Assembly: GCF_000016165.1 (NCBI RefSeq)
Contig: NC_009253.1
Span: forward strand, 1,460,332 to 1,524,331
Direction of reading: 5' to 3'
From: Desulforamulus reducens MI-1
GTDB lineage: Bacteria; Bacillota; Desulfotomaculia; Desulfotomaculales; Desulfotomaculaceae
Length of the DNA stretch: 64,000 nt
The notes under the pieces are model-generated. The model worked only from the letters and a program-made list of their open reading frames with translations, did not search any database and had not been told where the DNA came from. Position numbers and translations under genes: made by a program. This document shows, piece by piece, positions 2,444 to 37,192 of the stretch (its first letter is position 1; the number at the start of each line of letters is the position of its first letter).

Positions 2444-3403
2444 ATGTTTTCAAAAATTTCTTCATCTGTGTTAGAGGCCATCGGCCATACACCATTAATT
2501 GAATTATCACGCATCGCCGGAGAAGTACCAGGAAAACTATATGCTAAGGCAGAGTTTATGAACCCCACCGGTAGTATGAAGGACCGAATTGCCCTGAAGA
2601 TGATCGAAGATGCTGAAAAAGAGGGGAAACTTCGGCCAGGTAGCGTTGTCATAGAAGAAACCAGTGGTAATACCGGGATTGGTCTAGCTATGGTCTGTGC
2701 TATAAAGGGATATAAGTTTATTGCCGTTATGTCGGAGGGAAATAGCCCTGAACGACGGCAGATCTTGCAAGCGATGGGAGCAAGGGTTGAATTAGTTCCT
2801 CAGGTTGAGGGAGGTAAACCCGGTAGGGTAACCGGAGAGGATTTGGCTTTGGTAGAAAAAAGAGCAGAGGCATTAACGGAAGAAATGGGAGCACTATGGG
2901 TCAATCAATTTCACAATCCTAGCAACTGTGTGGCCCATTATGAAACCACAGCCCAGGAAATATGGCAACAAATGGATGGTAAAATTGATTATTTTTTAGA
3001 TGTTGTTGGAACTTCCGGTACATTTACCGGCATTGCCAGCGCCCTAAAGGATAAGGACTCCAAAATTCAATGTTGGGCTGTGGAACCAGCCACAGCACCG
3101 GTGCTGGCAGGCAAACCGGTAACGAATCCACAGCATGTCTTGCAGGGTTCCAGTTATGCTAAAGTACCAGATCTTTGGAATTCCCAGGTCTGTGATGGCT
3201 ATCTTTCGGTAACCGATGGGGAGGCAGTTCGGGCTGCCCGACGATTGGCCACCGAAGAAGGACTCTTTTGTGGTTATACTGCTGGGGGTAATGTTGCTGC
3301 TGCCCTGCGACTGGCGGGTTGGTGCGACCCAGGGGCAAGAATTGTTACGATTCTTTGTGATAGTGGAATGAAATACCTCTCTACGGATCTGTTCAAAGTT
3401 TAG
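2444..3403 (+). CDS. PLP-dependent cysteine synthase family protein
   Basis: This 319-aa fold-type II PLP enzyme most likely makes cysteine from O-acetylserine (or O-phosphoserine) and sulfide. PLP lysine K46 sits in NPTGSMKDR. The substrate loop SGNTGIG and the glycine-rich VGTSGTFTGIA phosphate loop are present. The C-terminal ILCDSGMKYLSTDLF motif is typical of CysK/CysM proteins. A GGAGG ribosome site lies 7 bp before the ATG. It is divergent from trpB and 74 bp before the selenoprotein gene. I do not assign CysK or CysM because substrate preference cannot be read from the sequence; a cystathionine-beta-synthase-like role is less likely but possible. Confidence 0.85.
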   Translation: MFSKISSSVLEAIGHTPLIELSRIAGEVPGKLYAKAEFMNPTGSMKDRIALKMIEDAEKEGKLRPGSVVIEETSGNTGIGLAMVCAIKGYKFIAVMSEGNSPERRQILQAMGARVELVPQVEGGKPGRVTGEDLALVEKRAEALTEEMGALWVNQFHNPSNCVAHYETTAQEIWQQMDGKIDYFLDVVGTSGTFTGIASALKDKDSKIQCWAVEPATAPVLAGKPVTNPQHVLQGSSYAKVPDLWNSQVCDGYLSVTDGEAVRAARRLATEEGLFCGYTAGGNVAAALRLAGWCDPGARIVTILCDSGMKYLSTDLFKV

Positions 3404-3476
3404 TATAACCAATATTTGCCTACAAATTATTAAATGTTATAATGATACTATAAAAACGTATATGGGGGTAATGATT

Positions 3477-3713
3477 ATGGAAGGCATTAGGTTGTCCATT
3501 GAGTACTGTACTTCTTGAGGTTATTTACCAAAAGCAGCCGGTCTGGCTGAAATATTGCTGCGGATGTACCGGAACAAAATTTCTTCCTTTGAATTGATTC
3601 CCTCCAGTGGAGGTGTATTCGAAGTAAAAAAAGATGGGGAATTAATTTTCTCCAAAAAGGTAGAAGGTCGCTTCCCAGAAAAAATTGAGATTACATCAAA
3701 GTTAGGAATATAA
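3477..3713 (+). CDS. Selenoprotein W-like (Rdx family) protein, UGA = Sec14
   Basis: Standard translation stops at a TGA (3516-3518), but the frame continues to TAA at 3711-3713 and gives a 78-aa protein. It starts MEGIRLSIEYCTSU and continues GYLPKAAGLAEILLRMYRN. This is a CxxU redox motif (C11, U14) directly after the first beta strand, exactly where SelW/SelT/SelH (Rdx) proteins carry CxxU or CxxC. Downstream SSGGVFEV and the C-terminal FPEKIEI block also fit the family, which has a thioredoxin-like fold and thiol-redox function. The start at 3477 is chosen because a GGGGG ribosome site ends 8 bp upstream; an ATG at 3471 is too close. It requires SelB/SelC elsewhere in the genome. It lies 74 bp after the cysteine synthase gene and has its own terminator. 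Confidence 0.85.
3516..3549 (+). promoter_or_regulatory. Bacterial SECIS-like element
   Basis: Sixteen bases after the UGA comes a perfect 5-bp stem CAGCC/GGCTG (3535-3539 with 3545-3549) closing the loop GGTCT. The apical loop of the E. coli fdhF SECIS is also GGUCU, and the short distance from UGA fits bacterial elements read by SelB. The lower stem is weak. Confidence 0.7.
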
Positions 3714-3749
3714 AAATATCCCGGCAAAGAGTTGCCGGGATATTTTTAT
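3713..3749. terminator. Terminator after the selenoprotein gene
   Basis: A long perfect stem (ATATCCCGGCAA / TTGCCGGGATAT) around AGAG, with A-run before and T-run after, begins at the stop codon. It could work in both directions. Confidence 0.85.
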
Positions 3750-3905
3750 ATTCCATTCACAAAGAAAAGCTTAAATTAAGCCAAGTCTTTATAACTATTT
3801 TTGACGAAGATAAATTCCTCTTCCACGAATATCTTTTGGGTATACTTTGGCAAACTATAGATAGTCTGATTAACTGCAATTACGTCACAGGTTAGGGGGA
3901 AGATT

Positions 3906-6455
3906 ATGTATTTTTTTCGAACTATTACTGTAAACCCTACAATTCCAGATAGGATTTCCCAATTAGGGGAATTGTCTTATAATCTTTGGTTTAGCTGGAA
4001 TCCTGATGCTCTGATGCTCTTCCAGAAAATTAATAAGGAAAAGTGGCAAGACCTAAATCACAATCCGGTTAAATTTTTACTGGAAGTTGATCAAGGTGAT
4101 CTAGCAAGAGCAGTTGAGGATCCAGAGTATCTGGCCTTGTATGACAAGGTTATGGCAGATTTTGATAGCTACATGAAGAGTGATACTTGGTATAAAAATA
4201 AATACCCTAACTTGGCAGATAAATCGGTGGCTTATTTTTCTGCAGAATTTGGTTTTCACGAATCCTTGCCCATCTACTCCGGGGGGCTTGGCGTTTTAGC
4301 AGGGGATCACTGTAAAGCAGCCAGTGATATAGGATTACCCTTAGTGGGTGTGGGGTTGTTGTATAAGCAGGGGTATTTTACGCAAAAAATTAACCGTGAA
4401 GGTTGGCAAGAAGCCCATTACCATTATCAAAACTACAACCAGATGCCGGTAAAGCCTGCTTTAGATCAAGAAGGCCGGGAAATTATTATTCCCGTTGAGT
4501 TACCGGGTAGAATTGTCTATGTAAGGCTTTGGCAGATTCAGGTAGGACGAATAAAAATATACTTGATGGATGCCGATATTACCATGAATAATGATGATGA
4601 CAGGCAATTAACAGCCCAGCTTTATGGAGGGGATAAGGATACGCGAATTTCCCAGGAGATGTTGCTGGGAATTGGTGGAGTAAAGGCTCTTAGGCAACTT
4701 GGTATCAATCCCGCTGCTTGGCATATTAACGAAGGACATGCGGCTTTCTTATGTATAGAAAGACTGCGTGAATTGGTGGAGGTCGGCATACCCCTTGCTA
4801 CTGCCAAAGAGGCAGTTAGGGCAAGTACAATCTTTACCACGCACACCCCTGTGCCGGCGGGGCATGATGTTTTCGACCATGAAAAGGTGAATCACTATCT
4901 AAGTAGGTATTATGAGTTGCTGGGTGTTGATCGTAATGGGTTTATGGCTCTGGGCTGGGACCCTAAACGTAATAATTTTAATATGACGATATTGGCTATG
5001 AATTTTGCCTCTTACTGCAATGGTGTTAGTAAACTTCACGGTGAAATAACCAGAAAAATGTTTCATTATGTTTATGACAACATTCCGGTGGAAGAAGTAC
5101 CGGTCTTTTCAGTAACAAATGGTATCCATACTTTAACTTGGCTTTCAGATGAATTAAGAAATCTATTTAATGCTTATCTTGAACCAACATGGCGCAATAA
5201 CATTAGTGATCAAAATATATGGCAAGCTATTGATAAAATTCCAGATAAAGAACTGTGGGATTTGCATGTGGGGTTAAAGAAAAAGGCCATTCAATTCATT
5301 CGGGCTTCTTTACGAAATCAAAAATATCGTAACCAAGAAGCTTCAGAGAGTATTGGTGAGGTAGAGGAATATTTAAATCCGGATGCCTTTACCATTGGTT
5401 TTGCCAGACGGTTTGCTACCTATAAAAGAGCAACATTGTTGTTTAGAGATCAAGAAAAGCTAGCAAAATTATTTACTGATCCAGAACATCCGGTACAAAT
5501 AATTTTTGCAGGAAAGGCACATCCCGCAGATCGTCCTGGGCAAGAACTCATAAGAGACATTTATGAAATGTCACAAAGGGATCCTTTTAAAGGGAAAATT
5601 ATTTTTATTGAAAACTACGATATGAATGTGGCAAGGCACATGGTTCAAGGAGTAGATATGTGGTTAAATACTCCCCGCTGGCCCATGGAAGCAAGTGGGA
5701 CCAGTGGCATGAAAGCAGCAGCAAATGGGGTTATCAACTGCAGTGTTCTGGACGGCTGGTGGCCGGAAGCATACAAAGAAGAAAATGGATATGCTATTGG
5801 AAAACAAACCGGATACCGTACAGAGGAAGATCAAGATAACGATGATGCCTATCATTTGTATTCATTGTTAGAGGATAACATTATACCCACCTACTACAGT
5901 CAGGAGGCAGGCTATCCTAAACAGTGGGTGCAATTCATGAAAAATTCTATCAAGACCATATTGCCGGAATTTAGTACTGAACGGATGGTAAAAGAATATA
6001 CAGAACGTTTCTATACCAAGGCTACTCAGAGAGGGGAAAAATTTTCTCAAAATCATTTTCAGGTAGCCCTGGAGGTTCAGGATTTTAAACGGTACATAAA
6101 AGAAAATTGGCACCACGTGTCAATTGAGTCAGTCGATGCTGATGGAATATCAGAACGGGATCTGAAAGTAGGAGACAGGCTTGAATTGGCAGTGGATGTC
6201 TACCTGGGCCCAATAAAACCAAGTGATGTTGTGGTAGAAATTGTTCATGGCTGTGAGAGCGACCACTCTCTGGTAAATGTAAAAACAACTTCATTGGAGG
6301 TCCAGGAACAAGAAAGTGAAGGAATTTATCACTACCGGGGCGGGTTTAACCTTGAACAAGGAAGTTGTGGGTTTACTGTGAGAATTAGACCACATCACTA
6401 CCTATTTGCATCAAATTTTGAACTTCCATTGGCCAGCTGGGCAAAGAATTTTTAA
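3906..6455 (+). CDS. glgP: Alpha-glucan (glycogen) phosphorylase
   Basis: This 849-aa GT35 enzyme releases glucose-1-phosphate from storage glucan using phosphate and PLP. The N-terminal region (SQLGELSYNLWFSWNPDALM) is the DUF3417-like domain found in the short archaeal/Thermotoga-type phosphorylases. Catalytic landmarks follow: YFSAEFGFHESLPIYSGGLG, the HINEGHAAF block, and the PLP lysine K603 in ASGTSGMKAAANG. Length fits that subfamily. A GGGGGA ribosome site precedes the ATG. No glgABCD genes are adjacent, so it acts as a stand-alone degradative gene here. Spore formers commonly store glycogen before sporulation, but a link to the right-hand island is not shown. Confidence 0.95.
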   Translation: MYFFRTITVNPTIPDRISQLGELSYNLWFSWNPDALMLFQKINKEKWQDLNHNPVKFLLEVDQGDLARAVEDPEYLALYDKVMADFDSYMKSDTWYKNKYPNLADKSVAYFSAEFGFHESLPIYSGGLGVLAGDHCKAASDIGLPLVGVGLLYKQGYFTQKINREGWQEAHYHYQNYNQMPVKPALDQEGREIIIPVELPGRIVYVRLWQIQVGRIKIYLMDADITMNNDDDRQLTAQLYGGDKDTRISQEMLLGIGGVKALRQLGINPAAWHINEGHAAFLCIERLRELVEVGIPLATAKEAVRASTIFTTHTPVPAGHDVFDHEKVNHYLSRYYELLGVDRNGFMALGWDPKRNNFNMTILAMNFASYCNGVSKLHGEITRKMFHYVYDNIPVEEVPVFSVTNGIHTLTWLSDELRNLFNAYLEPTWRNNISDQNIWQAIDKIPDKELWDLHVGLKKKAIQFIRASLRNQKYRNQEASESIGEVEEYLNPDAFTIGFARRFATYKRATLLFRDQEKLAKLFTDPEHPVQIIFAGKAHPADRPGQELIRDIYEMSQRDPFKGKIIFIENYDMNVARHMVQGVDMWLNTPRWPMEASGTSGMKAAANGVINCSVLDGWWPEAYKEENGYAIGKQTGYRTEEDQDNDDAYHLYSLLEDNIIPTYYSQEAGYPKQWVQFMKNSIKTILPEFSTERMVKEYTERFYTKATQRGEKFSQNHFQVALEVQDFKRYIKENWHHVSIESVDADGISERDLKVGDRLELAVDVYLGPIKPSDVVVEIVHGCESDHSLVNVKTTSLEVQEQESEGIYHYRGGFNLEQGSCGFTVRIRPHHYLFASNFELPLASWAKNF

Positions 6456-34495: not shown

Positions 34496-37192
34496 CTAGC
34501 TGCAAAGGGTGCCAAAGGGGAGAAAATCTCCTGATTTAAATGATACTGGTATGTTTTGTCCTGTATTTCCAGCAACGTAAAGGAAGATGCCAAAAGTGGA
34601 ACTGGTTTGGGCATTTATTATTAAATTTTTATCTTCGTTAAAAGGATTACTAAAAATAAAATGAGTACCACAACAGTTAGTAATATTAGAGAAACCAATT
34701 GTGTTTATTTGCGATATTGGACAAGTTCCAATATCGAAGGTTTTAAATGTTACACTTGCGGTTGTCCCGCTGGCATTGAACATTTTATATTCAAGATCCA
34801 TTATAGTTTTTATTAGAAGGAAGGGGCCGGTGGTTAGATTCTGTGCTGGACCCCGGAGGGCAAGCAATGATGAAACCTCAGCCTTGATTTCAGATAACCC
34901 GAAGGTCTCACTGAACACAGCGGATTCAATGGCAGATACTTCAGACTTAATTTCGGATAACCCGAAGGTCTCACTGAATACAGCGGATTCAATGGCAGAT
35001 ACTTCAGACTTAATTTCGGATAACCCGAAGGTCTCACTGAATACAGCGGATTCAATGGCAGATACTTCAGACTTAATCTCGGACAAACCAAAGGTCTCAC
35101 TGAACACAGCAGACTCGATAGCAGAGATTTCAGACTTAATATCGCCGAAGTCAACAATACTTAGGCTGCTGACCAGAGCAAGGATATCAGAAACCTCAGC
35201 CTTGATTTCAGACAAACCAAAGGTCTCACTGAATACAGCGGATTCGATAGCAGAGATCTCGGACTTAATATCGCCGAAGTCAACAATACTCAGGCTACTG
35301 ACCAGAGCAAGGATATCAGAAACCTCAGCCTTGATTTCGGATAACCCGAAGGTCTCACTGAACACAGCAGACTCGATGGCAGATACTTCAGACTTAATTT
35401 CGGACAAACCAAAGGTCTCACTGAACACAGCAGACTCGATGGCAGATACTTCAGACTTAATCTCGGATAACCCAAAGGTCTCACTGAATACAGCGGACTC
35501 GATAGCAGAGATCTCGGACTTAATATCGCCGAAGTCAACAATACTCAGGCTGCTGACCAGAGCAAGGATATCAGAAACCTCAGCCTTGATTTCAGACAAA
35601 CCAAAGGTCTCACTGAACACAGCGGATTCGATAGCAGAGATTTCGGACTTAATATCGCCGAAGTCAACAATACTCAGGCTGCTGACCAGAGCAAGGATAT
35701 CAGAAACCTCAGCCTTGATTTCAGACAAACCAAAGGTCTCACTGAACACAGCAGACTCGATGGCAGATACTTCAGACTTAATCTCGGATAACCCAAAGGT
35801 CTCACTGAATACAGCGGACTCGATAGCAGAGATTTCAGACTTAATATCGCCGAAGTCAACAATACTCAGGCTGCTGACCAGAGCAAGTATATCAGAAACC
35901 TCAGCCTTGATTTCGGATAACCCGAAGGTCTCACTGAACACAGCAGACTCGATGGCAGAGATCTCGGACTTAATCTCGGACAAACCAAAGGTCTCACTGA
36001 ACACCGCAGATTCGATAGCAGAGATTTCGGACTTAATATCGCCGAAGTCAACAATACTCAGGCTGCTGACCAGAGCAAGGATATCAGAAACCTCAGCCTT
36101 GATTTCAGACAAACCAAAGGTCTCACTGAACACAGCAGACTCGATGGCAGATACTTCAGCCTTAATTTCAGACAAACCAAAGGTCTCACTGAACACAGCA
36201 GATTCGATAGCAGAGATCTCGGACTTAATATCGCCGAAGTCAACAATACTCAGGCTACTGACCAGAGCAAGGATATCAGAAACCTCAGCCTTGATTTCGG
36301 ATAACCCGAAGGTCTCACTGAACACAGCAGACTCGATGGCAGATACTTCAGACTTAATCTCGGACAAACCAAAGGTAGGATTATTAATTTCGTCATCAAT
36401 ACCGGCTACAATTGTTAGAATAATAGAAACTTCAGACTTAATCTCTGGTAATCCAAAGGTGCAACTGAAAACACCATTTTCAATGCGGTTAACTTCTCTT
36501 TTAATTTCTTTCAGGCCAAATCTCCGGTTAAAGATAGCCTCTTCAATGCATTTAATTTCTTTCTTAATCTCCCTAAGCCCAAACTTTTTATTTTTTAGCA
36601 GGCAGAGAATAATTTTTAGTTTGAGGCAGGTGAAAATAAAGCACTTGAGTAGTTTGTCATCAAAGCAGGGATCTTTATGATGGTCATGGTGATGGCAATG
36701 GTGGTGATCATGATGGCCGGGATCATTACAATTAAAGGGATCATTAATATCGCAAGAATCTTTGAATGGATTCTTTTGATCATAAGGATCACAAGTGTCG
36801 CCGTAACTGCCAAATTCCTTAAGGCCTGCCCAGTCAATAAGGTCATTCCAGTCTGAAATATCTCCCCAATCGTCTTTAAAACCAAAGTTTTTTTCTAAAT
36901 ACTCTATGTCATCTGATAGTTCATCAACGATCTCATCGGCTATGTCTTCTGTCAAGTCCTCAGAGAAATCTGCTGCATCTTCCGTTAAGTCCTGTGAAAA
37001 ACTCTGTGGTAGATCTTCATCAAAGTCATCTAAAAAATTACCTATGGGTTTTTTTGATGACTCTTTAGCGAATTCCTCCGGCAAATCATCTTTTAGGAGT
37101 TCTTCCAGGTCTTGTTCACTGTAGTTTGGAACTTTTTCCAACATCGAGTTAACCATATTTTTAATGTATTGTTTGAACTCGTTTTGATTCAT
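34496..37192 (-). CDS. Giant coiled-coil repeat protein, spore-surface filament candidate
   Basis: This 898-aa protein has no signal peptide. Residues 1-155 are acidic (SEDLTEDIADEIVDELSDDI). A His-rich cluster (HHDHHHCHHHDHH) follows at about 158-172. From about 200 to 785 it is built of the 21-residue unit FGLSEIKSEVSAIESAVFSE-T: 16 near-identical AIESAVFSETFGL copies, seven of them separated by the variant DILALVSSLSIVDFGD, plus four degenerate copies at the N-terminal end. The heptad-like I/L/V spacing predicts a long coiled coil. The final 115 residues form the Cys-containing module shared with the protein at 32056. GGGGG precedes the ATG. Function unknown; a rod-like, possibly glycosylated surface protein is inferred. 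Confidence 0.75.
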   Translation of the reverse strand: MNQNEFKQYIKNMVNSMLEKVPNYSEQDLEELLKDDLPEEFAKESSKKPIGNFLDDFDEDLPQSFSQDLTEDAADFSEDLTEDIADEIVDELSDDIEYLEKNFGFKDDWGDISDWNDLIDWAGLKEFGSYGDTCDPYDQKNPFKDSCDINDPFNCNDPGHHDHHHCHHHDHHKDPCFDDKLLKCFIFTCLKLKIILCLLKNKKFGLREIKKEIKCIEEAIFNRRFGLKEIKREVNRIENGVFSCTFGLPEIKSEVSIILTIVAGIDDEINNPTFGLSEIKSEVSAIESAVFSETFGLSEIKAEVSDILALVSSLSIVDFGDIKSEISAIESAVFSETFGLSEIKAEVSAIESAVFSETFGLSEIKAEVSDILALVSSLSIVDFGDIKSEISAIESAVFSETFGLSEIKSEISAIESAVFSETFGLSEIKAEVSDILALVSSLSIVDFGDIKSEISAIESAVFSETFGLSEIKSEVSAIESAVFSETFGLSEIKAEVSDILALVSSLSIVDFGDIKSEISAIESAVFSETFGLSEIKAEVSDILALVSSLSIVDFGDIKSEISAIESAVFSETFGLSEIKSEVSAIESAVFSETFGLSEIKSEVSAIESAVFSETFGLSEIKAEVSDILALVSSLSIVDFGDIKSEISAIESAVFSETFGLSEIKAEVSDILALVSSLSIVDFGDIKSEISAIESAVFSETFGLSEIKSEVSAIESAVFSETFGLSEIKSEVSAIESAVFSETFGLSEIKSEVSAIESAVFSETFGLSEIKAEVSSLLALRGPAQNLTTGPFLLIKTIMDLEYKMFNASGTTASVTFKTFDIGTCPISQINTIGFSNITNCCGTHFIFSNPFNEDKNLIINAQTSSTFGIFLYVAGNTGQNIPVSFKSGDFLPFGTLCS
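34870..36390 (-). repeat. Coding tandem-repeat array (63-bp unit, 192-bp higher-order period)
   Basis: The 63-bp unit coding FGLSEIK..FSET and a 66-72-bp variant alternate. Much of the array repeats exactly every 192 bp (for example around 35674, 35866 and 36058). Copies are nearly identical in DNA, indicating recent expansion or gene conversion. Assembly and copy number should be treated with care. Confidence 0.9.

Follow-up and report, generated by a model that had tools for sequence, protein, structure and literature searches.

The window analyzed here, a 64-kb stretch of the genome of Desulforamulus (Desulfotomaculum) reducens MI-1, a species that the NCBI taxonomy now places in Desulforamulus, contains a short selW-like gene on its forward strand. 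The frame begins with an ATG at 3477, passes through an in-frame TGA and consists of 13 codons, the TGA and 64 further codons, which are the same coordinates and counts that the first-pass annotation had given. When the TGA is read as U, the product has 78 residues, with the motif CTSU at residues 11 to 14. The features assigned to the locus are collected in Table 1.

Table 1. Features at the selW-like locus, with positions in the 64-kb window
Feature	Position	Strand	Basis
selW-like gene, 78 residues, Sec predicted at residue 14 (CTSU), ends in TAA (3711..3713)	3477..3713	+	Family models, conservation, predicted fold
In-frame UGA, predicted selenocysteine codon, with partial decoding as cysteine possible	3516..3518	+	Conservation and decoding machinery
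Ribosome-binding site GGGGG, 8 bases 5' of the ATG	3464..3468	+	Sequence
Promoter-like site TTGCCT-16-TATAAT; a TG precedes the second hexamer	3416..3443	+	10 of 12 matches, weak
Bacterial SECIS hairpin within the coding region, with a stem of 5 pairs and the loop GGUCU	3535..3549	+	Covariation
Perfect inverted repeat of 23 pairs, loop AGAG, which overlaps the stop codon; probable terminator	3705..3754	+	z = -10.63

The ribosome-binding site that had been ascribed to the gene was recovered, and G-rich stretches precede the starts of most of the 21 loci that were aligned. The promoter-like site is weak evidence, since three such sites occur in 541 bases where 2.1 are expected in shuffled sequences. 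The proposal that the gene has its own terminator was upheld in part: the perfect hairpin at its 3' end lies far outside the range of chance folding, but it is absent from the forward-strand terminators of the pattern scan, apparently because its T run sits inside the stem. This hairpin is a probable transcription terminator, and the selW-like gene is probably its own transcription unit. The upstream gene (window 2444 to 3403), which we take to be cysteine-synthase-like, is kept at five of nine genus loci, and the downstream gene (window 3906 to 6455), presumably glgP-like, is found at two of the nine as well as at three loci of another family, in flanks of up to 1.5 kb in each case. An operon with these conserved neighbors was considered; the association was judged to be one of shared position instead, because selW has its own hairpin terminator.

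The first-pass annotation had also claimed that standard gene calling would miss the gene. In partial support of that claim, the table-11 ORF list has no forward-strand ORF of 60 aa at this position. An antisense ORF of 68 residues (window 3521 to 3727, minus strand) covers the UGA-containing gene, and a gene caller may report that ORF instead. A survey of stop codons published in 2007 missed SelW-like proteins, in part because the stop codon is near the N terminus (PMC1914089). Within the 64-kb window, there was no Rfam match at gathering thresholds and no tRNA according to ARAGORN, selC being located elsewhere in the genome. A scan for other UGA-interrupted frames in the window, which required 40 or more codons on either side of the UGA and at least 150 in total (limits that selW itself falls short of), yielded six, none of which was selenoprotein-like as judged from coordinates and sequences. 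Two long ORFs of the window overlap on opposite strands, one at 34496 to 37192 on the minus strand (898 aa) and the other at 34701 to 36680 on the plus strand (659 aa).

Several family models recognize the window protein. It matched Pfam Rdx (PF10262) with an E value of 1e-22 and 80.5 bits (cut-off, 22.6), NCBIfam NF041051 with 94.2 bits (cut-off, 88) and TIGR02174 CXXU_selWTH with 64.7 bits (cut-off, 34.2). The short name of NF041051, SelTWH_Campy, suggests Campylobacterota if the name is taken literally, whereas the present protein is from a Firmicute; it exceeds the curated cut-offs of both this model and TIGR02174 all the same. A profile was built from alignment A2 with the window row left out (20 rows) and used to search all six frames of the 64 kb, translated through stops. 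Its single match was the selW-like gene (E = 6e-34), so that a chance open frame is excluded. Similarly, the whole D. reducens genome (one contig of 3,608,104 bases) has one Rdx match, with one TGA inside it. In the 21 sequences of A2, C11, residue 14, A20, G46, F48, V50 and K60 are invariant, residue 14 being the U of the CxxU motif. In the predicted fold, the motif lies between the first strand and the first helix, and a GxFEV block (G46, F48 and V50) is also present; a CxxU/CxxC motif and tGxFEI(V) have been named as traits of this family (PMC10650576). Together with the conservation, SECIS and machinery data below, these comparisons make it very probable that the locus is an Rdx (SelT/SelW/SelH) selenoprotein gene, with Sec predicted at residue 14.

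Structural modeling is consistent with this assignment. The AlphaFold2 model, made with C in place of U for the window protein together with three relatives, had a pLDDT of 92.3 and placed a strand at residues 4 to 11 (E4-11) and a helix at residues 17 to 30 (H17-30). In the model, Cys11 is predicted to end the first strand and Sec14 to lie in the loop that leads into the first helix. SelW-related bacterial proteins ranked first in the Foldseek search, the best being 2fa8 (chain 2fa8_A; TM score, 0.92; 36% identity), followed mostly by thioredoxins, and a PDB sequence search agreed, with eight distinct sequences at E values up to 0.01. The bacterial SelW-related structures 2fa8, 2obk, 2oka, 2p0g and 3dex have the fold in common with the window protein (TM scores of 0.81 to 0.93 by query length) at 32 to 39% identity. 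These five we take to be Cys proteins; the present gene has a UGA. Mouse selenoprotein W (2npb) shares family and fold at a greater distance (sequence E = 1.6e-6; TM score, 0.67). The window protein is therefore predicted to have a thioredoxin-like fold, as in the solved SelW-related proteins, and from this fold and the CxxU motif a role in selenol/thiol redox chemistry follows. The product is probably a small cytosolic selenol/thiol oxidoreductase that would form a selenenylsulfide. According to a review, the exact functions of the animal members of the family are still unknown (PMC10650576).

The UGA is conserved well beyond D. reducens, in agreement with what the first-pass annotation had expected of relatives at position 14. 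Of the 10 family genomes, 9 contain a relative; these belong to one genus (9 of 9 genomes, D. reducens included), and each has a single TGA. The tenth genome comes from another genus and has a completeness of 70%. The class, with 113 genomes, gave 19 matches, again with one TGA in every case. A phylum sample of 398 genomes, drawn evenly from a larger group and including 6 genomes already counted, gave 31 matches, 28 of which have one TGA and 3 of which have no stop. One of these three is a Cys form (L059), one has Arg encoded by CGA (L066) and one is a fragment that covers 28 profile positions and stops short of the site. A scan of genome contigs returned only three distant loci, each with a UGA. 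These three, together with 18 of the 19 class loci, make up the 21 loci of alignments A1 and A2; the remaining class locus, L040, was missed by local tblastn, but it was recovered by the profile among the further loci and has a TGA. There were 25 such further loci, comprising 23 with UGA, one with Cys and one with Arg; L042 to L047 were left out because their genomes had already been used, and the pairs L052/L054 and L067/L071 are near identical and hence not independent. Cys homologues of SelW-like proteins are very few among organisms that use Sec, as reported by Zhang et al. in 2006 (PMC1794560).

Two further observations were made among these relatives. In L066, a hairpin is still predicted downstream of the CGA codon, and the substitution may reflect either the loss of Sec or an error in the sequence. 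In addition, one branch of Rdx selenoproteins (L040, L065 and L067 to L071) carries a C-terminal extension of approximately 190 to 225 residues, which in the three proteins scanned (L040, L065 and L068) is DUF2703 (PF10865; E = 1.7e-31 or better), making these Sec-Rdx/DUF2703 two-domain proteins. Among the papers searched, none paired DUF2703 with selenoprotein.

A stem-loop with the sequence CAGCC-GGUCU-GGCUG lies just 3' of the UGA, with 21 bases separating the UGA from the loop, and a G is present in its small apical loop, as described for bacterial SECIS elements (PMC1088965). The hairpin corresponds to the one that had been proposed at SECIS distance. Its single-sequence folding energy was not beyond chance (z scores of -1.73 to +0.23 in four stretches), and since the energy is unsupportive, the argument for a SECIS element rests on covariation. 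In the gapless alignment of 21 loci, 98.1% of the 105 stem cells are paired. The covariation score was 0.505, compared to 0.168 ± 0.032 in shuffled alignments, none of 500 of which reached it, and to a maximum of 0.120 with the partner strand slid; the shuffle ignores the relatedness of the sequences, but the slid-strand control does not. The number of standard pair types, by comparison, was not beyond that in the shuffles (149 of 500). Four of the five stem pairs are altered on both sides in some sequence. The second pair, for example, is G-C in 8 loci, A-U in 7, C-G in 3 and U-A in 3, and is thus paired in all 21; it links the third positions of two codons, and constraint on the protein would not yield such covariation. 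RNAalifold returned the same stem with one more pair. In the 23 further UGA loci, which lie outside the 21, 107 of the 115 cells of the five pairs hold a standard pair, and four of the eight failures fall at one pair (offset 18-28), in 4 of the 23 loci. In eukaryotes, the SECIS element sits in the 3' untranslated region. The present element therefore differs from that of the mammalian selenoprotein W gene in being located inside the coding region, adjoining the UGA.

The absence of selB and selC had been named beforehand as evidence that would count against the selenoprotein reading, and the D. reducens genome proved to contain a complete set of selA, selB, selC and selD. selB is located at C1:2386863-2388755 (387.8 bits; cut-off, 242.25), with selA directly upstream of it (623.7 bits); selD (399 bits) has its own TGA inside; and the tRNA-Sec gene selC (L004; C1:2373134-2373227) scored 66.9 bits with the Rfam tRNA-Sec model and was called tRNA-SeC with anticodon TCA by ARAGORN. 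Across the class, 18 of the 19 genomes with selW have selB above the cut-off; however, so do 109 of all 113 genomes, and selB co-occurrence is therefore uninformative as a test. In G040, a genome with a UGA-containing selW that is 84% complete, there was no selB match at an E value of 1e-40. From established selenoprotein biology, SelD would make selenophosphate and SelA would convert seryl-tRNA-Sec to selenocysteinyl-tRNA-Sec, which SelB, on binding the hairpin, would bring to the UGA at 3516. The family models, the conserved UGA, the covarying SECIS stem and the Sec machinery together bear out the original proposal of a UGA-encoded SelW-like protein.

These data also bear on two other ways of explaining an interrupted frame. 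If an ordinary nonsense mutation had struck what was once a Cys-type Rdx gene, the locus would be a pseudogene, and it is true that a single base change separates TGA from TGT and TGC, the Cys codons, and that a Cys form is known (L059). However, the TGA is kept in 44 loci (21 plus 23), the residues 3' of it are still conserved and the stem of the SECIS shows covariation at synonymous sites, and we give this explanation practically no credence. Nothing specific speaks for unspecific readthrough of the UGA, for example as Trp and without selenocysteine; one relative, L066, does have another residue, Arg, at this place. The CxxU motif is the redox site of the family, occupied by Cys in the non-UGA form L059, and the genome has both a SECIS hairpin and the complete Sec machinery. 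Readthrough of this kind is very improbable.

A different proposal, which is a refinement of the selenocysteine reading and compatible with it, is that two tRNAs recode the selW UGA: tRNA-Sec would insert Sec when selenium is available, and a SelB-carried selC* tRNA-Cys would insert Cys when it is not. The selC* tRNA-Cys found in anaerobes, including Firmicutes, resembles tRNA-Sec but has a GCA anticodon and U73 and is further characterized by an 8/4 structure, an unpaired A51a in the T stem and the use of SelB (PMC7609411); in the related D. nigrificans, among other species, a tRNA of this type is reported to be delivered by SelB and to decode Sec UGA as Cys (PMC11415595). A locus outside the window (L005; G000:C1:2514030-2514122) was called tRNA-Cys(gca) by ARAGORN, yet it scored 49.8 bits with the Rfam tRNA-Sec model, for which the gathering threshold is 47, and like selC it is absent among the 70 matches listed for the general tRNA model (150 of 226 candidates scored). 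The tRNA-Sec-like structure, GCA anticodon and U73 are all found in it, and on sequence grounds the L005 gene (L005:1501-1593) is probably a selC* tRNA-Cys. A match to it occurs in all 10 genomes of the family, the 12 aligned copies all share the anticodon loop with GCA and carry a T just before CCA, and the genome contains ordinary tRNA-Cys(gca) genes as well (L087 and L089). A Moco (molybdenum/tungsten) riboswitch (L005:2723-2842; 74.6 bits) is located downstream of this tRNA-Cys-like gene.

Other observations weaken this proposal. L005 exceeds the tRNA-Sec gathering threshold by only 2.8 bits, which is weak by itself, and it is one of two further loci above that threshold among the 150 of 259 candidates scored; the other, C1:24602-24687, passes with 47.3 bits yet scores 56.5 bits on the general tRNA model, and it probably represents an ordinary tRNA whose variable arm is long. 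In an ARAGORN comparison that covered 30 of the 41 loci L072 to L112, a tRNA-Cys was called at the corresponding place in 6 of 11 copies from other genomes (L073, L074, L075, L077, L078 and L080), but no tRNA was called there in the other 5 (L072, L076, L079, L081 and L082). Furthermore, a GCA anticodon does not match UGA by standard pairing, and nothing ties the L005 tRNA to selW in particular. Decoding by two tRNAs is therefore a tentative and rather unlikely refinement; Sec is the likely outcome at residue 14, which might be Cys in part.

With regard to earlier work, Zhang et al. listed eight selenoproteins for D. reducens in 2006, namely, SelD, two FdhA, two FrhD, HdrA, a SelW-like protein and a DsbA-like protein (PMC1794560, Table 3). 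The organism, the family and the copy number of one agree with those of the present gene. The table passages give neither coordinates nor a sequence for that entry, and identity rests on the single copy: since there is one Rdx match in the genome and one copy in the table, the present gene is almost surely the SelW-like protein listed there. The D. reducens SelW-like selenoprotein has thus been known since 2006, and what is added here is the covariation test and the demonstration of genus-wide conservation. A literature search for Desulfotomaculum reducens MI-1 and selenoprotein together found nothing, and the text of a 2026 review of prokaryotic selenoproteins contains neither "SelW-like" nor "Rdx."

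In conclusion, our analysis confirms a selenoprotein that is invisible in a table-11 ORF list, and because the two sides of its stem covary at synonymous positions, the hairpin provides strong evolutionary evidence for a SECIS element within a bacterial coding sequence. It can be envisioned, although we regard it as doubtful, that in Desulforamulus the selW UGA is read as Sec or Cys depending on the selenium supply, through two SelB-delivered tRNAs, so that one gene would give rise to the enzyme in both a seleno- and a thiol-form. Being tiny and having a single UGA, selW would be a convenient reporter for Sec versus Cys insertion.
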